Assembly (NCBI RefSeq): GCF_022343685.1
Contig: NZ_CP092123.1
Span: 1,488,001-1,552,000 of the forward strand
DNA: 64,000 nucleotides
Direction: 5' to 3'
From: Marinobacterium sediminicola
GTDB lineage: Bacteria > Pseudomonadota > Gammaproteobacteria > Pseudomonadales > Balneatricaceae
The notes below the pieces were generated by a model. The model did no database searches and was not told the DNA's origin. It saw only the letters and a program-made list of their open reading frames with translations. Position 1 is the stretch's first letter. Each line of letters opens with the position of its first letter. Shown piece by piece: positions 8,548-16,658 of the stretch. The translations under genes were made by a program, and so were the position numbers.

Positions 8548-9693
8548 ATGACAAGAGAGTCGCAGGGAGATCGCCGGTTTGGTGGGGTGATCAGACAGCA
8601 GTGGTCATGTTTTCTGCTGTTGATGGTAATGGCTTGTCTGTTGAAGGTGCAGGCGGCAGGGCTTGGGGACTACTGGACCCTGGAGCAGTACTACAATGCA
8701 CACCCTGATCAGAAAGTGTGGCTTGAAGAGCTGCAGCGAGAGGTTGATAAAGACCCAGTCCCCGTAAAACCGGGTGTTCAGAACCGTCCGGTTCGTATCG
8801 CGCAGGTTTATCCTGGGCTGCAGGCTTCGAGCTACTGGTCAGACAGCGAGAAGGCGCTGGTGGGTCGCTTGAAAGACCTGGGTATTGAGTTTGAATTGGA
8901 GGCGCGCTACACCAGCCCAAATACCCAGCTGGATGAGCAGATCCGACAAATCCGCGAATTGCTGGACTGGAAGCCTGATTATCTGATCTACACGTTGGAC
9001 TCCCCGCGACAAAAGCTGCTGGTTGAGCGGCTGGTGCAAAATACAGAGACGCGCCTGATTCTGCAGAATATCACTACCCCCTTGAAAGACTGGGAGTTGC
9101 GTCAGCCCTTCATGTATGTCGGCTTTGATCATACCGAAGGTGCGCGCCTGCTTGCTCAGCATTTTGCGAAGTGGTTTGCTGAAGCTGATTACGGCGTGCT
9201 TTTTCGCAGTAAAGGGCTGGTCAGCCAGATGCGCGGTACCGGCTTTATTCAGGGGGTGCCTGCAGAGCACCGACTGCTTAGCAGTTACTACTCGGACTCC
9301 AGTCGAGAAGGTGGGCGAAATGCGGCGTTACGCATGCTCTCAGAGCACCCTGAACTCGACTACATTTACGCCTGTTCAACTGACGTGGCGCTGGGAGCGC
9401 TGGATGCACTGGAACAATTGGAGCGCAAGGATGTGGTGGTTAATGGCTGGGGTGGTGGCCCGGAAGAGATAGAACAGCTCCTTTCGGGACGCTTGCCGGT
9501 TGTTTTAATGCGCCTGAGTGATGAGGCCGGGATCGCCATGGCAGAAGCGATGCGGCGAGACCTGATAGGAAAGCCGGTGCCTAAAGTCTATTCAGGTCAG
9601 TTTGTTGTTCTTGATGATCGGATGGCTGAAGAGAATATTCGCCATTATGAAACACGTGCCCACCGTTACTCCGGAGGGGCGCATGTTCAATAA
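8548..9693 (+). CDS. luxP: LuxP-like periplasmic binding protein with complete AI-2 pocket
   Basis: The 381-residue protein has a signal peptide (hydrophobic residues 20-33, likely cleavage near VQA-AG) and a two-lobe Peripla_BP fold. It lines up with Vibrio harveyi LuxP along its whole length: YPGLQASSYW, LILQNITTPLKDW, YVGFDHTEGAR, YIYACSTDVALGALDAL, NGWGGG and the C-terminal RYSGG. The residues reported to contact the AI-2 furanosyl borate diester are all present: Gln92, Ser94, Trp97, Asn174, Arg229, Ser277/Thr278, Trp301 and Arg322, with constant offsets of 15, 14 and 12 from LuxP numbering. The two arginines that balance borate charge are among them. It overlaps the next gene, a sensor kinase, by 11 bp. 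By family logic it binds a sugar-like signal in the periplasm and presents it to that kinase. A TorT-type or ribose-type ligand remains possible, but the conserved pocket favours AI-2. Confidence 0.85.
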   Translation: MTRESQGDRRFGGVIRQQWSCFLLLMVMACLLKVQAAGLGDYWTLEQYYNAHPDQKVWLEELQREVDKDPVPVKPGVQNRPVRIAQVYPGLQASSYWSDSEKALVGRLKDLGIEFELEARYTSPNTQLDEQIRQIRELLDWKPDYLIYTLDSPRQKLLVERLVQNTETRLILQNITTPLKDWELRQPFMYVGFDHTEGARLLAQHFAKWFAEADYGVLFRSKGLVSQMRGTGFIQGVPAEHRLLSSYYSDSSREGGRNAALRMLSEHPELDYIYACSTDVALGALDALEQLERKDVVVNGWGGGPEEIEQLLSGRLPVVLMRLSDEAGIAMAEAMRRDLIGKPVPKVYSGQFVVLDDRMAEENIRHYETRAHRYSGGAHVQ

Positions 9694-11413
9694 GCCAAAA
9701 TTCAAGGTTCTTACCTTTCTGCTTACCCTGACCTCTTCACTGGTGTTTTTGGCGGTGTTTGTAGGTACTGCCTTCGTAGAGTCAAAGCAGGTCATTGAGC
9801 TTCAGGCTGAGGGGTACAACCGTGCTCTTGCAGCGCGATACTTGCAACGCCTGAACGAGTACTTTCAGCTGGTGGCAGAGGAAGCGCATGCAATTGGTGC
9901 CAATTCGGAACATGTCGAAGCACTGCATGCGGGAGATCAGCATCGGTTCAATACCAGTCTGACCCATTGGGAAGAAACCTATGAACATATTCATTATGAC
10001 TTTGTAGCGGCCTCCCTATTCGAAGGTGATGTGTGTTACCTCTCGCGCAGCTATGTGCCTGAGTTGAGTATCCTGCCCTGTGAAGAGCTGGCTCGGGAGG
10101 GGGATGATCTTGCCAGCCCCGGATGGCGCCTGGTCCAGGTTCAGGGTGAGTGGCTGGCGGTTTATTCAGAGCCTTTGTCCTTGAAAGACACGGGTAAGAT
10201 TATCGGACAGTTGATGGTGGGTGTGCGGCTGAAAGGTAATCGCTACCTAATTAATCAGTTGTTGATGCCATCGGATGGCCTACAAATGTTGGGTATTTTC
10301 AGTGGCGATGAGCCACTGGCAAAGCTGGACAGGGTGGATGAGCAATTCCCGGTGCAACAGGGGCTCAGAATTACCTTCTCAGAAGGAGGTACGCCCTTGG
10401 GGCAGGATATTCGCATTGGCCTGGTTTCAAGAGATTTGGCCCAGGTGCAATTACGAGAAGCACTGATTGAAACGCTTGTCTACGGCTGCCTGCTGGCACT
10501 GGGTGTTTCACTTGGACTTGCGCTGCTTTTGTCCGGAGCGGTGGACAGGCAGTTGCAGCAGCTGATCACCTTTACTCGGCTTGCTAATCTGAATCGCAAT
10601 ACGCGCTGGCCGGAAATTCGTATCCGAGAGTTCAACCTGATCGGCGAAGAAGTTGTCAGCATTGTGAATTGTCTGAAGGAACGTGAGGATGAACTGGAGG
10701 GACTTAATCGACAGTTATCCAAGAATAACGAAGAGAAGCGTCAGATCCTTCAGCATTTGATTCAGGCTCAGGAACGGGAGCGACTGCGTCTGTCCAATGA
10801 ACTTCACGATGATATGGCTCAACTCCTGGTTGCTGTGAAGATGAATCTGCAGTTACACCGGGAGGAACTGAAGAAAATAGACTGCCCGCGCGAAACGCTC
10901 GAGCATGCAATCGAGCTGGTAAACACGATTTACGATACGGTTTATAACCGGATAAGAATGTTGCGGCCTTTCGAATTAAATGATTTTGGCCTTGGCGTCA
11001 GTTTGACCTCTCTTCCGGCAGTCAAAATCCTTGAACAGCTGGATTATGCAGTTGAGTTTGATATTAATCAGTCGCGTCCGCTGCAAAAGGAGCTGATGTC
11101 CAGCCTCTATCGCATCGCTCAGGAAGCATTGTCAAATGTAATCAAGCATGCCGGTGGTACTTACGTACTGGTTAAGCTGGAGGATGAGTCAGATGGATTG
11201 CGCATGGTGATCGAAGATGACGGGGAAGGCTTCGGTGACAATGCTGCCACGCGTACAGGAGGTTTTGGTTTGCTCGGGATTCGAGAACGCGCAGAGCATA
11301 TGCATGCTGAGCTGACAATTCATTCGGATGAAGGTGTCAAAGTAGAGCTGTTTGTTCCAGCGCGTTATGCCTATGTTGATGATAAAGCGGGGGAGGTATT
11401 GGCTTCTACGTAA
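9683..11413 (+). CDS. Sensor histidine kinase: LuxQ-like periplasmic domain on a NarX/DegS-type (HisKA_3) kinase
   Basis: The chosen ATG at 9683 follows a strong GGAGG and lies inside the end of the luxP-like gene (11-bp overlap); an open frame from 9602 is less likely. The 576-residue protein has TM1 (about 8-31), a periplasmic region (32-260), TM2 (261-284), a HAMP-like linker, and a HisKA_3 dimerisation domain with the phosphoacceptor His375 (SNELHDDMAQLL). The ATPase boxes are EALSNVIKHA, DDGEGFG and GFGLLGIRERA. Part of the periplasmic region (ASPGWRLVQV ... GQLMVGVRL) resembles the second PAS-like fold of LuxQ. Unlike LuxQ there is no C-terminal receiver domain, and the kinase type is different. 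Cys118 and Cys133 of the periplasmic domain could form a disulfide. Likely partner is the NarL-type regulator at 16005. Confidence 0.88.
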   Translation: MFNKPKFKVLTFLLTLTSSLVFLAVFVGTAFVESKQVIELQAEGYNRALAARYLQRLNEYFQLVAEEAHAIGANSEHVEALHAGDQHRFNTSLTHWEETYEHIHYDFVAASLFEGDVCYLSRSYVPELSILPCEELAREGDDLASPGWRLVQVQGEWLAVYSEPLSLKDTGKIIGQLMVGVRLKGNRYLINQLLMPSDGLQMLGIFSGDEPLAKLDRVDEQFPVQQGLRITFSEGGTPLGQDIRIGLVSRDLAQVQLREALIETLVYGCLLALGVSLGLALLLSGAVDRQLQQLITFTRLANLNRNTRWPEIRIREFNLIGEEVVSIVNCLKEREDELEGLNRQLSKNNEEKRQILQHLIQAQERERLRLSNELHDDMAQLLVAVKMNLQLHREELKKIDCPRETLEHAIELVNTIYDTVYNRIRMLRPFELNDFGLGVSLTSLPAVKILEQLDYAVEFDINQSRPLQKELMSSLYRIAQEALSNVIKHAGGTYVLVKLEDESDGLRMVIEDDGEGFGDNAATRTGGFGLLGIRERAEHMHAELTIHSDEGVKVELFVPARYAYVDDKAGEVLAST

Positions 11414-11463
11414 TTATACGTAGTGGCTTGCGGCTTTTACCTGCGGCGCCTGCGTAGTAAAGG
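11406..11463 (+). promoter_or_regulatory. Dyad-symmetric elements upstream of dctP
   Basis: CTACGTA / TACGTAG (11406-11423, 4-nt centre) is a perfect palindrome that spans the stop codon of the kinase gene. It is followed by an imperfect dyad GCTTTTAC ... GTAAAGGC (about 11431-11463) centred on GGCGCC. Neither has a T-run, so they are not simple terminators. They may be binding sites for a regulator of the transporter genes such as the NarL-type protein encoded downstream; this is inference from position only. Confidence 0.4.
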
Positions 11464-11500
11464 CAGGCATTTGCGGGGTATTGCGAATGTTTTTATTGCT

Positions 11501-11563
11501 CTGTCGTGTCGATACTGACAACTGCCGGCAACAGTTCCGAGTTGCCGGTCAGAACGACAACAG
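11501..11563 (+). promoter_or_regulatory. Long hairpin in the dctP 5' leader
   Basis: An inner perfect stem CCGGCAAC / GTTGCCGG (11525-11548, 8-nt loop) is enclosed by an outer stem in which CTGT(CG)TGTCG at 11501-11511 pairs with CGACAACAG at 11555-11563 around a 2-nt bulge. The structure ends immediately before the ribosome binding site (GAGGAT, 11563-11568) of dctP. No T-run follows, so it is not a terminator. It could stabilise the mRNA or regulate translation start. Confidence 0.5.
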
Positions 11564-11579
11564 AGGATAGATAAAAACA

Positions 11580-12653
11580 ATGTTTAAACTGACCTTTGCT
11601 CGTAAAATTATGGCGGCTGCTGCCTGTGCGGCTGTTCTGATTAGCCCGGCACAAGCGGCCGAGAAAGTTTATACACTCAAATTGGCTGAAACCTGGCCGA
11701 CCAACTTTGGTGTTTTCAGTGAGCCTGCGCGCCGCATGGCCGACCTGGCCAACAAAATGTCCAACGGTCGCCTTGAAATTCGTATCGACACTGCCAACAA
11801 GCACAAGTCAGCTTTTGGTGTTTTCGATATGGTTCGTGCTGGCCAGTATGATATGGGCCACTCCGCATCCTATTATTGGAAAGGAAAAGTACCGAACACC
11901 CTGTATTTCACCACTATGCCTTTTGGTATGACCGCGACAGAGCAGTACGGCTGGTTCTACTATGGCGGCGGCATGGAGTTGATGCAGAAGGTTTATGAGC
12001 CGTTCAATCTGATGTCTTTCCCGGGCGGTAATACCGGTGTGCAGATGGGCGGCTGGTTCCAGAAAGAGATCAACAGTGTTGAAGACCTTGAAGGTCTGAA
12101 AATGCGTATTCCAGGCTTTGCGGGTGAAGTGCTGGCCAAGCTGGGTGCCAATCCGACAAATATTCCGCCGGGCGAGCTCTATACCTCGTTGGAGCGTCGA
12201 ACCATTGATGCACTGGAGTGGGTTGGTCCCTCTATGGATCTACGCATGGGCTTCCACAAGATCGCTCCCTATTACTACACTGGCTGGCATGAGCCGGGCA
12301 CCGAGCTGCAGTTCCTTGTTAACAAGCGCTCCTTTGACAAGCTGCCGGCTGATCTTCAGGAAATCCTGACAACGGCAATGCGTGTCGCTGCATATGACAT
12401 GACTATTCAGTCATACCATGAGTCTGGACAGAACTGGGCAACCATGAAAGCAGAATTCCCGAACGTGGAAGTCAAGTCTTTCCCGCCTGAGGTTTTGGCC
12501 GCTTTGCGCAAAGCCAACGACGAACTGCTGGCTGAACATGCTGCCAACGATGAGCTTGCCAAAGAGATTCTTGATTCTCAGGCCGAGTACATGGGTGTCG
12601 TTCGTCAGTGGACCGATATTGCTGATCGCGCATATCTGAACAGCTTCGAATAA
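11580..12653 (+). CDS. dctP: TRAP transporter periplasmic solute-binding protein, TakP/FcbT1 type
   Basis: The 357-residue protein has a clear signal peptide (MFKLTFARKIMAAAACAAVL, cleavage near AQA-AEK) followed by a DctP-family fold. It carries segments typical of the subgroup that includes Rhodobacter TakP: FYYGGGMELM, PGGNTGVQMGGW, GLKMRIPGFAGEVLAKLG, DALEWVGP and APYYYTGWHEPG. TakP binds 2-oxo acids such as pyruvate with a sodium ion, and related members bind chloroaromatic carboxylates, so a small organic acid is the likely ligand. The binding protein is the first of three consecutive TRAP genes. The 166-bp gap before it holds dyad repeats and a long leader hairpin, suggesting its expression is controlled separately from the sensor genes upstream. 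Confidence 0.92.
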   Translation: MFKLTFARKIMAAAACAAVLISPAQAAEKVYTLKLAETWPTNFGVFSEPARRMADLANKMSNGRLEIRIDTANKHKSAFGVFDMVRAGQYDMGHSASYYWKGKVPNTLYFTTMPFGMTATEQYGWFYYGGGMELMQKVYEPFNLMSFPGGNTGVQMGGWFQKEINSVEDLEGLKMRIPGFAGEVLAKLGANPTNIPPGELYTSLERRTIDALEWVGPSMDLRMGFHKIAPYYYTGWHEPGTELQFLVNKRSFDKLPADLQEILTTAMRVAAYDMTIQSYHESGQNWATMKAEFPNVEVKSFPPEVLAALRKANDELLAEHAANDELAKEILDSQAEYMGVVRQWTDIADRAYLNSFE

Positions 12654-12734
12654 GCCTGTTCCGGGGCTCGGCTAGGCGAGCCCCATTCAACCGCCAGACG
12701 ATTTGTCTGCAGTCCCTACCCGAGAGGACTTCAC

Positions 12735-13271
12735 ATGTTTCTGTTACGCCTTGAGCAGACGATCAACGCATTCTCAGACTGGCTGGGCAAGATCTCTGCT
12801 GTGCTATTTGTCTTGATGTTGTTCAACGTCTTCTATGACGTCATTACGCGTTACCTTTTCAACGATGTGTCTATCGCCATGCAGGAAATGGAGTGGCACC
12901 TCTTTGCGGCCATGTTCATGTTGGGTGTTCCATTTACGCTCAAGGCCGGAGGTCATGTGCGTGTTGACCTGATCTACGAAGGTTTGAGTCTGAAAAAGAA
13001 AGCCTGGATCGATCTGTTCGGTGTCCTGACATTGTTGTTTCCGTTCTGCCTGTTGGTGGCCTGGTACGGCGTGGACTTCGCCCGCGAATCCTTTGAGCTG
13101 GGTGAGGGGTCCGGTGACCCAGGTGGATTGCCCTACCGTTGGGTGATCAAGGCGGTGATCCCCTTTGCATTCTTCTGCACCTTCATCAGCGGGGTGGGGT
13201 TGATGCTGCGGGCGATCAATACTCTGAATGGTCATCACAAAAGCGATGACTACATCCCGACACAGCACTGA
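12735..13271 (+). CDS. dctQ: TRAP transporter small permease subunit
   Basis: The 178-residue protein has four transmembrane helices (about 15-40, 50-70, 92-115 and 135-158) and the family-typical sequence VLMLFNVFYDVITRYLFNDVSIAMQEMEW in helices 1-2, where the Arg and Trp residues near the membrane face are common to DctQ proteins. It pairs with DctM to form the sodium- or proton-driven membrane part of the transporter. It is 81 bp after dctP and 14 bp before dctM. The region 12654-12734 between dctP and dctQ holds only a weak GC-rich repeat (GGGGCTCGG ... CGAGCCCC), which may lower dctQM expression relative to dctP. Confidence 0.9.
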   Translation: MFLLRLEQTINAFSDWLGKISAVLFVLMLFNVFYDVITRYLFNDVSIAMQEMEWHLFAAMFMLGVPFTLKAGGHVRVDLIYEGLSLKKKAWIDLFGVLTLLFPFCLLVAWYGVDFARESFELGEGSGDPGGLPYRWVIKAVIPFAFFCTFISGVGLMLRAINTLNGHHKSDDYIPTQH

Positions 13272-13285
13272 CGAAGGACTTCACG

Positions 13286-14575
13286 ATGATTGGTATAACA
13301 ATGTTTTTCGTGGCCCTGGTGATGCTGTTGATCGGCTTCCCGGTGGCCTTCATCTTTGGCGGCGTGGCGCTATGGTTTGGCGTGTATGCTGAAGGTCCGG
13401 ACATGTTTGCTTTCATGCCATTCCGCATCCAAAGCATTATGGAAAACACGGTATTGATGGCGGTGCCACTGTTTGTCTTCATGGGTATCGTGTTGCAGAA
13501 AACCCGATTGGCTGAGCAGTTGCTTGAGTCGATGGGTAAGCTATTTGGCGGCGTACGTGGCGGTCTGGCAATATCAACGGTACTTGTTGGGGCGCTCCTG
13601 GCTGCCTCAACCGGTGTGGTGGGTGCATCGGTAGTGGCGATGGGGCTTATCTCACTACCGGTGATGCTCAAGTACAACTATGACAAGAAACTGGCCTGCG
13701 GCACCATTTGTGCCTCCGGCACTTTGGGCCAAATCATTCCACCCTCAATTATCCTGATCATTCTGGGTGATGTGATGGGTATCCCGGTCGGTGATCTCTT
13801 TCAGGCAGCTATTCTGCCGGGTGCGATTCTGATTGGCGCCTATATTATCTATATCTTGATTTATACCTTCCTTAAACCTGAAGCCGCACCGGCGCTTCCT
13901 ATGGATATGGACGACGGGACGAGAAAGCAGCAGGTTTACAAGGCCCTGAAGGCGATTATTCCACCCTTGGCGCTTATCCTGGTCGTACTGGGTTCCATCT
14001 TTGCCGGAATAGCCACACCAACAGAATCTTCGGCACTGGGTGGTGTAGGTGCCTTGTTTCTGGCGCTTGTCTACCGTCAATTCAGCTGGAAAATGGTTTA
14101 TGAATCAGCAGCTGAGACCGTAAAAGTGACCGCAATGGTGTTTGCGATTCTGCTGGGCGCTACAGCGTTTTCGATGGCGTTCAGCTACACCGGCGGTGAG
14201 GAAGTAGTTGAACACTACCTGTCAAATCTGCCGGGTGGGGCCATGGGCTTCCTGCTACTGTCGATGCTGGCAATTCTGATTCTGGGTTTCTTTATCGACT
14301 TTGTCGAAATCAGTTTTATTATCGTACCGATTCTGCTGCCTGCGGCAGAAGTATTGGGTATTGCGCCGGTATGGTTTGCTATCCTGATTGCCATGAACTT
14401 GCAAACCAGCTTCCTGACGCCCCCATTTGGATTCAGTCTTTTCTATTTGAAAGGGGTGGCGCCACCACAGGTGCGCACGCTGGATATCTATAAGGGTGTT
14501 GTACCTTTCATTTTGCTGCAGATCGCGATCGTTATCTCGATATTGCTGTTCCCGGAATTCTACGGACTGGTTTAG
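13286..14575 (+). CDS. dctM: TRAP transporter large permease subunit
   Basis: The 429-residue protein is an ion-transporter superfamily member with about 12 hydrophobic segments and the DctM signatures: ALLAASTGVVGASVVAMGLI, GTICASGTLGQIIPPSIILI (the conserved GxLGxxIPPS motif), ATPTESSALG and LTPPFGFSLFYLKG. It carries the substrate across the inner membrane while DctP delivers it. Length and motifs are normal for the family. It is the last gene of the transporter operon, closed by a strong terminator 10 bp downstream; the second sensor kinase follows. Confidence 0.94.
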   Translation: MIGITMFFVALVMLLIGFPVAFIFGGVALWFGVYAEGPDMFAFMPFRIQSIMENTVLMAVPLFVFMGIVLQKTRLAEQLLESMGKLFGGVRGGLAISTVLVGALLAASTGVVGASVVAMGLISLPVMLKYNYDKKLACGTICASGTLGQIIPPSIILIILGDVMGIPVGDLFQAAILPGAILIGAYIIYILIYTFLKPEAAPALPMDMDDGTRKQQVYKALKAIIPPLALILVVLGSIFAGIATPTESSALGGVGALFLALVYRQFSWKMVYESAAETVKVTAMVFAILLGATAFSMAFSYTGGEEVVEHYLSNLPGGAMGFLLLSMLAILILGFFIDFVEISFIIVPILLPAAEVLGIAPVWFAILIAMNLQTSFLTPPFGFSLFYLKGVAPPQVRTLDIYKGVVPFILLQIAIVISILLFPEFYGLV

Positions 14576-14638: not shown

Positions 14639-16000
14639 ATGCCGCTCAAGTTCAAGATTCTCCTCCTTGCGCTCATACCCATGATGCTGGTGACTGCTGC
14701 CGTGACCTGGATTGGCCTTAATCAGGCTCGCCAGTTGTCGGAGGATGAGATCAGGCTGTTTGAAGAACATCTTCTGGCGTCGAAAAAGCGTGAGCTTAAA
14801 AACTACGTCAGTCTGGCAATGACCTCGATAGGTCATATCGTTGATAACGCAGGCGCCGATGACGAGCAGGCGCAGGCTGAAGTTCGCAAGATATTGACGG
14901 ATATGACTTTTGGGCAAGACAAGGATGGATATTTCTTTGTCTACACGCTCGATGGCACCAATCTGGTTCATCCCACTGAACCGGAGTTGATCGGGCAAAA
15001 CCTCTATGACCTTCAGGATAGTGGCGGAGATTACGTTATCCGTAATCTGTTGGCGCAGGTTGAGCTGGGGGGCGGCTATCATCGATACATCTGGCGCAAG
15101 CCGTCCCGTCAGGAGCAGATCGACAAATTAAGCTACGTGGTTTTGCTGCCCAAGTGGAACTGGATGCTAGGTACAGGGCTGTACCTGGATGACATCAGTC
15201 GAGAAGTTGCAAAAATTCGTGCCCAGGTAAATCGTAATATTCGAAATACGTTTTTCACCGTGTTGGTGATTACATCCGTGGCGGTAGTACTGGTTGTTCT
15301 TGTTGGGATAGCAGTCAATCTTCATGAGAGTCGAATGGCTGACAGTCGACTCAGGATGCTGGCCCATCGTTCAGTCCTGGCCAACGTGGCTGATAGAAGG
15401 CGATTTTCGCGTGAGTTGCATGATGGTATCAACCAGTTGATGGTTTCAGTGCTCTACAGGATCGAGTTAGCCAAACGCAAACTCAAAAATGAAGATCCGA
15501 GTGGGCTTGAGGACCTTGATCAGGGATATGATGTCCTGAACGAGGCAATCCAGGAAGTACGACGTATTTCCCATGACTTGCGGCCAACGTTGCTGGATGA
15601 TCTTGGCCTGAAGGCGGCCTTGGACGGATTGCTCAGTCGATTTGAGGAGCGAACAGGTATCCGTTTAAAGGTGGATATAAGGTTGCCGACAGCAGAGCTG
15701 CCCGAGGATGTAGAGATTACAATCTATCGTCTCGTACAGGAGGGGCTGACCAATGTTGAACGGCACGCAGATGCGAGTATGCTGAAATTGAGTCTTTGGG
15801 GTCAGGCTGGGACCCTATGGCTACGATTGCAGGATAACGGATGTGGTTTCGATACCGATGTTCTTGAGCGCTTTGAGGGTATAGGCTTGCGTAATATGCG
15901 AGAACGCGTTGAACTGCTTGGAGGCGAGTTCCGATTGCTGTCGAAACCGGGTCAGGGAGCTACCTTGTTGGTAGGTCTCTCATTGCGTCAAAGGGCATGA
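14639..16000 (+). CDS. Sensor histidine kinase with Cache sensor and HisKA_3 kinase domain
   Basis: The 453-residue protein has TM1 (about 5-27), a periplasmic single-Cache domain (30-195) recognised by DGYFFVYTLDGTNLVHPTEPELIGQNL, TM2 (203-226), and a cytoplasmic HisKA_3 domain with His261 (SRELHDGINQLM). ATPase boxes are EGLTNVERHA, DNGCGFD and GIGLRNMRERV. Cache sensors of this kind usually bind small organic acids such as pyruvate or C4/C2 acids in the periplasm, consistent with its place right after a TakP-like TRAP transporter. The start ATG is 63 bp after dctM and 26 bp after the terminator. The response regulator follows with a 4-bp gap, so it is the cognate partner. Confidence 0.92.
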   Translation: MPLKFKILLLALIPMMLVTAAVTWIGLNQARQLSEDEIRLFEEHLLASKKRELKNYVSLAMTSIGHIVDNAGADDEQAQAEVRKILTDMTFGQDKDGYFFVYTLDGTNLVHPTEPELIGQNLYDLQDSGGDYVIRNLLAQVELGGGYHRYIWRKPSRQEQIDKLSYVVLLPKWNWMLGTGLYLDDISREVAKIRAQVNRNIRNTFFTVLVITSVAVVLVVLVGIAVNLHESRMADSRLRMLAHRSVLANVADRRRFSRELHDGINQLMVSVLYRIELAKRKLKNEDPSGLEDLDQGYDVLNEAIQEVRRISHDLRPTLLDDLGLKAALDGLLSRFEERTGIRLKVDIRLPTAELPEDVEITIYRLVQEGLTNVERHADASMLKLSLWGQAGTLWLRLQDNGCGFDTDVLERFEGIGLRNMRERVELLGGEFRLLSKPGQGATLLVGLSLRQRA

Positions 16001-16004
16001 ATTG

Positions 16005-16658
16005 ATGACACAGCGGATACGCGTATTACTGGTTGATGACCATCCATTGGTCATAGATGGTATTCAGGCACGCCTTGAGGATGAAGGCACGATAGACGTG
16101 GTTGGACGCGGCGGTAATGGTCAGCAGGCTATAGCGCTGAGTGAGGAGTTGCAGCCGGACGTTGTGTTAATGGATATATCGATGCCGGTCATGAATGGTT
16201 TGGAAGCAACTCGCGTATTGACAGAACGGCTGCCTGGTATTCGCGTGCTGATACTGAGTATGCATGATAACCGTGAGTATATGGTGCAGCTCATTCAGGC
16301 AGGTGCGAAGGGATATATCCTAAAGGATGTTTCGGCCGCGGAAATGGTTAAGGCAGTTGAAACGGTATATCACGGTGGCACCTATTTCAGTGCGAGTGCC
16401 TCGCAAACGCTTTTCAGCAGCTTCGATCAGCCCAATGCAGGTGCAGAAAACAAGGATACACAGCTGACGCAGCGGGAACAGACGGTGCTGAAGCTGCTGG
16501 CTGAAGGGCATAACAATAAAGAGATAGCCAGAGTGCTGGGGATTTCGGTTCGTACGGTTGAAACACACAGGCAGAATATCAAGTCAAAACTTGATGTTCA
16601 TACAGCAGCAGGCCTGACCCGCTATGCTATTGAGCATAATCTGGTGCAGTTATCCTGA
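16005..16658 (+). CDS. NarL/FixJ-family response regulator
   Basis: The 217-residue protein has a receiver domain with the acidic pocket (LLVDDHP), phosphoacceptor Asp57 (VVLMDISMP) and conserved Lys in YILKDVSA, then a LuxR-type helix-turn-helix (LTQREQTVLKLLAEGHNNKEIARVLGISVRTVETHRQNIKSKLDV). I take the ATG at 16005 as start; a TTG at 16002 is also open. It probably regulates the TRAP genes and perhaps itself. Two HisKA_3 kinases in this locus, the LuxQ-like one at 9683 and the Cache one at 14639, are candidate inputs, and no second regulator is encoded nearby. Confidence 0.93.
   Translation: MTQRIRVLLVDDHPLVIDGIQARLEDEGTIDVVGRGGNGQQAIALSEELQPDVVLMDISMPVMNGLEATRVLTERLPGIRVLILSMHDNREYMVQLIQAGAKGYILKDVSAAEMVKAVETVYHGGTYFSASASQTLFSSFDQPNAGAENKDTQLTQREQTVLKLLAEGHNNKEIARVLGISVRTVETHRQNIKSKLDVHTAAGLTRYAIEHNLVQLS

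Follow-up and report, generated by a model that had tools for sequence, protein, structure and literature searches.

The window analysed here is a stretch of 64,000 nucleotides from Marinobacterium sediminicola (contig NZ_CP092123.1, positions 1,488,001 to 1,552,000), and the subject of this report is a pair of overlapping genes within it, a luxP-like receptor gene and the sensor-kinase gene that follows. The pair likely represents a LuxP-LuxQ-type receptor system for autoinducer-2 (AI-2) in which a HisKA_3 kinase of MctS/UhpB-like character forms the cytoplasmic half. A first-pass annotation, made from the DNA alone, had proposed a LuxP-like receptor with an AI-2/borate pocket, next to a LuxQ-like sensor that carries a HisKA_3 kinase. 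This composition, with the sensor taken as divergent, is supported by profile searches, a LuxP tree of 62 rows and natural negatives among the relatives. Beyond what that annotation had in view, related genomes attach this LuxP-LuxQ input module to several output types, of which the present one is an example. Its parts are as follows.

8548..9693, + strand: predicted LuxP-family periplasmic AI-2 receptor, 381 aa (open reading frame [ORF], phmmer, pocket alignment).
9683..11413, + strand: LuxQ-like sensor kinase of 576 aa (ATG at 9683), its output half being HisKA_3-HATPase_c (domain scans, hydropathy).
9683..9693, + strand: 11 bp shared by the 3′ end of the receptor gene and the 5′ end of the kinase gene (sequence).
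9707..9763, + strand: hydrophobic segment 1 of the kinase, residues 9-27, probable transmembrane helix (hydropathy).
9764..10474, + strand: periplasmic domain, putative divergent LuxQ-periplasm (double Cache) homologue (profile methods; the Pfam model itself is unmatched).
10475..10531, + strand: hydrophobic segment 2 of the kinase, residues 265-283, probable transmembrane helix (hydropathy).
10778..10969, + strand: HisKA_3 domain, with His375 in LHDDMAQ (Pfam, alignment).
11102..11362, + strand: HATPase_c with N and G boxes (Pfam, alignment).

The receptor ORF starts with a hydrophobic segment (hydropathy), read as a signal peptide, and is matched by V. harveyi LuxP at E 3.4e-93 over residues 39-376 (phmmer, PDB sequences). 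A ribose-binding protein reaches only 7.3e-14 in the same comparison, and a ribose-type identity was rejected on these two values; the LuxP match also sets aside membership in a ribose/TorT group without LuxP similarity, which the first-pass annotation had named as a counter-case. Alignment pairs ten pocket positions of the window protein with V. harveyi LuxP, namely Q92 with Q77, S94 with S79, W97 with W82, N174 with N159, R229 with R215, S277 with S265, T278 with T266, D279 with D267, W301 with W289 and R322 with R310, and so bears out the earlier claim of a pocket with steady offsets of 15, 14 and 12. The two arginines presumably coordinate borate, a point (R215, R310 and borate) on which the literature search found nothing, and we take W289 to have a role in AI-2 recognition by LuxP. 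In the 1JX6 structure S79, R310, R215, T266, N159, W82 and Q77 hydrogen-bond AI-2 (PMC9687752), and W289 is named for docked anthraquinones only (PMC9920117).

Across 57 rows, identity to V. harveyi LuxP averages 44% overall but reaches 98-100% at nine of the ten pocket positions, the tenth being position 265 with 68%. This set excludes the distant loci L083, L088, L089 and L090; with these four rows added (61 rows), the nine positions are still at 92-100%, counted from the same patterns. The near-duplicates L037, L042, L046 and L093, together with L096, were left out of both the pocket rows and the LuxP tree. Exceptions among the 57 rows are L068 at position 77, L050 at position 267 and L052, which has Cys at 215 and a hybrid-kinase partner. 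Five fetched relatives of 26-30% identity lack the set, L083, L090 and L119 having the pocket letters DSWARNTAWR, and L088 and L089 having ANNDRTQNWF. Since the set is missing from these low-identity relatives and near-invariant elsewhere, it seems to separate AI-2-type LuxP members from paralogues. L083, L090 and L119 constitute a second LuxP-like type without a sensor partner, and the DSWARNTAWR type also occurs in a Vibrio-like genome possessing a LuxP with the full AI-2-contact set. L088 and L089 (f27, Marinomonas-like by inference) are, unlike the window LuxP, devoid of the AI-2 residues, and adjoin a protein of ~860 aa that has no Pfam match at the thresholds used.

For the sensor half of the kinase, we take the periplasmic domain to be a divergent LuxQ-periplasm homologue, a judgement that rests on sequence comparison. 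A hidden Markov model (HMM) built from 12 partners positive for the Pfam LuxQ-periplasm model (PF09308) finds the window kinase at 1.5e-9 among 189 targets in all, the best control ORF being at E 0.87 with the LuxP partners and the window frame set aside. Profile-profile comparison of the genus alignment with the same 12 partners gave 98.1% and E 9.1e-14 over 201 columns. The NCBIfam LuxQ model matches the window kinase at 1.1e-6 over residues 180-368 of the 603-aa frame, i.e., the later periplasmic part, the second hydrophobic segment and beyond, and its relatives L040 and L045 at 9.1e-11 and 4.3e-8 over most of the N-terminal part; as the LuxQ equivalog (NF041947), the window kinase scores 26.9 bits, far below the curated cut-off of 1200 bits. 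PF09308 itself matches 33 of 48 LuxP-linked sensors at 0.01. A search of the window's own genome with it found nothing, but 14 control genomes also gave no match. LuxQ-periplasm belongs to the Cache superfamily; of 115 members counted, 112 sit in histidine kinases and one in a c-di-GMP protein (PMC4822843).

The cytoplasmic half carries HisKA_3 and HATPase_c domains above cut-offs, with an LHDD..Q box, and the Pfam scan found no receiver domain, just as the first-pass annotation had described; the two transmembrane helices it had predicted correspond to the hydrophobic segments at residues 9-27 and 265-283. Its label of a NarX/DegS-type kinase was loose. The HisKA_3 assignment stands, but the core is closer to MctS (1.4e-36) and UhpB (4.5e-33), the best named cores in NCBIfam, than to NarQ (1.4e-18) and NarX (6.9e-18). 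In 27 of 27 LuxP-linked HisKA_3 kinases the H-box His and the N, D and G residues of the ATP site are invariant. The 11-bp overlap noted at the outset holds (ATG at 9683, luxP stop at 9693) and likely couples the translation of luxP and kinase; the LuxP-kinase junctions in most relatives are likewise short gaps or overlaps.

The pairing recurs, as the neighbourhood search suggested by the first-pass annotation brought out. In the window's own GTDB family, LuxP was found at 58 places in 48 of 116 genomes (1e-20), and the next gene encodes a HisKA_3 kinase at 27 of these and a GGDEF-EAL protein at 23. The remainder are hybrid HisKA (two), simple HisKA (two), a LuxQ-periplasm ORF without output (one) and no partner (three), and the pocket is nearly invariant across all output classes. 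Two kinds of pair occur together in some genomes, HisKA_3 with GGDEF-EAL in seven and HisKA_3 with hybrid in two. The classes were assigned from scripted motif patterns and by hand from Pfam, which was run on the window kinase and 25 next genes; within the GGDEF-EAL class it covered only L061, L069 and L092, the others being placed by motifs and alignments. Kept in the survey counts are L060, L083 and L096 without partner (L096 lies at a contig end), L074 without output and L090 with an unrelated next gene.

Wider samples were surveyed as well. In the order sample 17 of 390 genomes carry LuxP, seven of these outside the own family, where the next genes encode a HisKA kinase (L085), PAS-HATPase kinases (L086, L087), a PAS-only protein (L091), proteins without a Pfam match (L088, L089) and an unrelated product (L090). 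The class sample has two carriers in 369 genomes including the own one, the other having a GGDEF-EAL partner, and the phylum sample has 12 in 398 including the own one. Among the latter, in eight of eight LuxP-carrying genomes of genus f228 (Vibrio-like by inference) LuxP is followed by an 850-860 aa partner with a HisKA motif, and the one scanned, L108, is a hybrid LuxQ; the other three partners are a PAS-HisKA kinase (L116), a hybrid (L117) and a simple HisKA kinase (L118). No HisKA_3 partner was found beyond the own family, where sampling is sparse. A scan of the genome contigs gave one related locus.

On the 62-row LuxP tree HisKA_3 partners need three changes, two of them forced by the starred branches. 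Compared with a small set of nine other HisKA_3 cores, those of the 23 LuxP-linked kinases group together (96/85). Distances in the LuxP tree correlate with those in the sensor-domain tree (Spearman 0.75, 52 pairs; none of 500 permutations as high), the latter having been built without L037, L042, L046, L093, L074, L086, L087, L088, L089, L090 and L092. The pairing belongs to a wider pattern of output exchange within the LuxPQ kind.

The own genome also contains luxS (4.7e-49, with the HxxEH motif in the translation) and, hence, the cell can probably make AI-2. By eye, an MTA/SAH nucleosidase look-alike lies ~2 kb from it. In the family luxS is present in 69 of 116 genomes. Of the 27 genomes that have a HisKA_3 pair, 25 carry it, and the two that do not are 86% and 89% complete; of the 21 LuxP genomes lacking such a pair, 14 carry it. 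Taken together, 39 genomes have both LuxP and luxS, nine LuxP only, 30 luxS only and 38 neither (Fisher p 5.7e-5, uncorrected for kinship). Six genomes with only a GGDEF-EAL pair (G058, G059, G062, G063, G067 and G068) gave no luxS match and are candidate listeners that do not make the signal. The luxS gene of the own genome is at G000:C1:1766091-1766519, and two luxS score classes exist within the genus, ~1e-48 to 1e-50 in six of eight genomes (and in G070 and G074 of another genus) and ~1e-56 to 1e-57 in G020 and G025, like most of the family. Gene replacement is a possible source of the two classes.

Several results weigh against the proposed pairing of a LuxQ-type input with this kinase. 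Pfam LuxQ-periplasm has no match in the window kinase at E 1 or 0.01, so that the LuxQ-like periplasmic segment of the first-pass annotation was recovered by profile methods and intermediates but not by that model. The reverse search, with the genus HMM against the others, was weak, the best of the 12 partners being at 2.8e-7 and many at 1e-2 to 1e-5, with one control at 0.044, and a single-sequence structure prediction of the periplasmic domain gave a pLDDT of 38.6, which makes it worthless. The permutation behind the tree correlation ignores common descent, and the correlation may reflect shared descent alone. On the output side, no dedicated response regulator adjoins the LuxP-kinase pair. 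In addition, a search for MctR in 26 of the 27 carriers of a HisKA_3 pair (G035 was left out) gave no match at 1e-40 in G024, G036, G037, G103 and G055, and only 36% identity in G056. Even so, the profile comparison, set against the earlier note's counter-case of a kinase with no LuxQ-like periplasmic part, finds such a part.

A working model can be drawn from homology, the residue set, architecture, conservation, luxS and the lack of a LuxU-size Hpt protein; past these we infer AI-2 binding, complex formation, the direction in which the ligand switches the kinase, and a partner response regulator. The exported LuxP would bind borated AI-2 through the V. harveyi residue set and sit on the double-Cache periplasmic domain of a kinase dimer, and a ligand-dependent rearrangement would then shift the balance between kinase and phosphatase activity. 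No stand-alone Hpt protein of LuxU size was found, all six Hpt matches in the own genome lying within frames of at least 704 aa (the search covered Hpt, not LuxO). Because the kinase has no receiver and such an Hpt protein was not found, phosphate should pass in a single transfer to a response regulator of the NarL family, bypassing LuxU-LuxO, and the signal probably reaches the genes of the cell by a shorter route than in Vibrio.

The genes downstream of the pair bear on which regulator this might be.

11580..14575, + strand: TRAP (tripartite ATP-independent periplasmic) transporter genes dctP, dctQ and dctM, neighbours outside the pair (Pfam).
14639-16000, + strand: MctS-like sCache HisKA_3 kinase, neighbour (Pfam, NCBIfam).
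16002-16658, + strand: MctR-like NarL-type regulator, neighbour; possible, non-obligate output partner (Pfam, NCBIfam).

In seven of eight own-genus genomes dctP lies 3′ of the kinase, with MctS- and MctR-like genes beyond, and the MctS-like and LuxQ-like kinases are both of the HisKA_3 kind. This arrangement would suit a pair that senses another small sugar or furanone (e.g., one linked to the TRAP transporter) and regulates dctPQM via a shared MctR. We regard this explanation as unlikely, as the AI-2/borate residue set is complete, luxS is present in all eight genus genomes and the pair stands in other contexts in related genera; moreover, G024 keeps the pair without dctP or the rest of the transporter at the locus, and is among the genomes with no MctR match at 1e-40. 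A second possibility, tentative yet better placed, is that the LuxQ-like (AI-2) and MctS-like (probably carboxylate) kinases converge on MctR, coupling cell density to TRAP uptake in the genus; it amounts to the preferred explanation with a specific partner added. Within 7.0 kb on one strand lie a single NarL regulator and two HisKA_3 kinases, an MctR-like gene is found on the same strand near the pair in seven genus loci (within the fetched stretches), and MctR matches of at least 59% identity occur in 20 of the 26 carriers searched. Against it, adjacency of the pair and MctR was seen in just one genus, and MctR is absent or doubtful in the six carriers given above, for which reason it was rejected as an obligate partner.

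Other regulators were considered. A different NarL-type gene lies 7.6-8.7 kb from the pair in L044 and L093. A GacA-like regulator near luxS (L099) was rejected as dedicated partner; it matches in 104 of the 116 genomes of the family (1e-38), whether or not these have LuxP, and is, therefore, probably the UvrY/GacA shared across the family and not specific. Look-alikes of uvrC and pgsA (by eye) are ~5 kb from it. The other NarL-type regulators looked at adjoin a kinase or resemble ErdR, FixJ or GacA, and no dedicated orphan NarL-type regulator was found, only MctR and L099 having been profiled across genomes.

Within the genus, LuxP (58-71% identity to the window copy) and the kinase (53-75%) diverge more than DctP (92-94%; genomes shown), as might be expected if LuxP had lost AI-2 sensing and the pair were a relic. 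We consider this most improbable, since the frames are open and the pocket, H-box and ATP-site residues are unchanged in the genus members aligned.

Returning to the AI-2 receptor pair, the survey also casts light on its GGDEF-EAL counterparts. All 24 aligned GGDEF-EAL proteins (23 from the family, one from the class sample) have G124, D126, E127, F128 and the EAL residues, and nearly all have G125. These LuxP-GGDEF-EAL pairs are a probable direct route from AI-2 to c-di-GMP. The arrangement is seen at L055, L057, L059, L061-L067, L069-L073, L075-L079, L081, L092, L094 and L098, and most of the partners carry a LuxQ-type periplasmic domain. We lean towards a broader interpretation in which LuxP plus the LuxQ-type periplasmic domain constitutes an interchangeable AI-2/borate input cassette, joined in one gammaproteobacterial family to HisKA_3, GGDEF-EAL, simple HisKA and hybrid outputs, with two kinds in nine genomes. 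A single signal would then act on transcription and on c-di-GMP in parallel, with LuxU-LuxO playing no part, and some of the genomes that lack luxS would only listen. What is known of LuxP-type AI-2 sensing comes mainly from a single Vibrio circuit. Should the interpretation hold, such sensing would be a portable input module that can feed four or more kinds of output, the AI-2 responses of non-Vibrio genera would become directly testable and related genomes with and without luxS could separate talkers from listeners.

Relative to Vibrio LuxP-LuxQ, the window pair shares the receptor family, the complete AI-2 pocket, the adjacency of receptor and sensor genes and the two hydrophobic segments flanking a LuxQ-type periplasmic domain. 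It differs in having HisKA_3 in place of PAS-HisKA plus receiver, in a genome where no LuxU-size Hpt was found and with a periplasmic domain too divergent for the Pfam model; LuxQ is treated as a hybrid kinase that signals via LuxU-LuxO (PMC8895600). With MctS/UhpB-type HisKA_3 kinases the window kinase shares the core, as judged by NCBIfam scores that stay under the curated cut-offs, but it takes its input through a LuxQ-type periplasmic domain paired with LuxP. The AsrK-AsrR system of Vibrio furnissii likewise senses AI-2 via a histidine kinase other than LuxQ, but it has no LuxP: AsrK binds AI-2 through its own dCache_1 domain, most strongly when borate is absent, and the AsrR phosphodiesterase is its target (PMC11796354). 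A survey (iScience 2025) counted 267 LuxP proteins, reported AI-2 binding for three randomly chosen ones and described LsrB and LuxP as binding AI-2 for transport (PMC12268683).

LuxP homologues beside PAS-containing regulators were reported in Neptuniibacter and Marinomonas by Rezzonico and Duffy (2008), with no luxS known in Oceanospirillales (PMC2561040). These are similar to the window pair as Oceanospirillales LuxP proteins adjoining a regulator unlike LuxQ in output, and different in that the regulators there are PAS proteins whereas HisKA_3 kinases in luxS-positive genomes are found here. The first-pass annotation was aware of no described system of such composition. LuxP beside other regulators in Oceanospirillales has been known since 2008, but no description of LuxP with a HisKA_3 kinase, or of the LuxP-GGDEF-EAL class, was found in the portions of the open literature covered (subscription papers and most preprints lie outside it).

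Some minor observations remain. The 315-aa ORF after LuxP at L074:7870-8817 (- strand) has a LuxQ-periplasm match and no output domain, and looks truncated. In G022 and G023 a full dctM was not recognised by the gene caller used. Finally, positions 11414-11585 of the window, between kinase and dctP, are strongly folded (minimum free energy -64.8 kcal/mol, z -3.9), possibly as a terminator or a TRAP operon leader.

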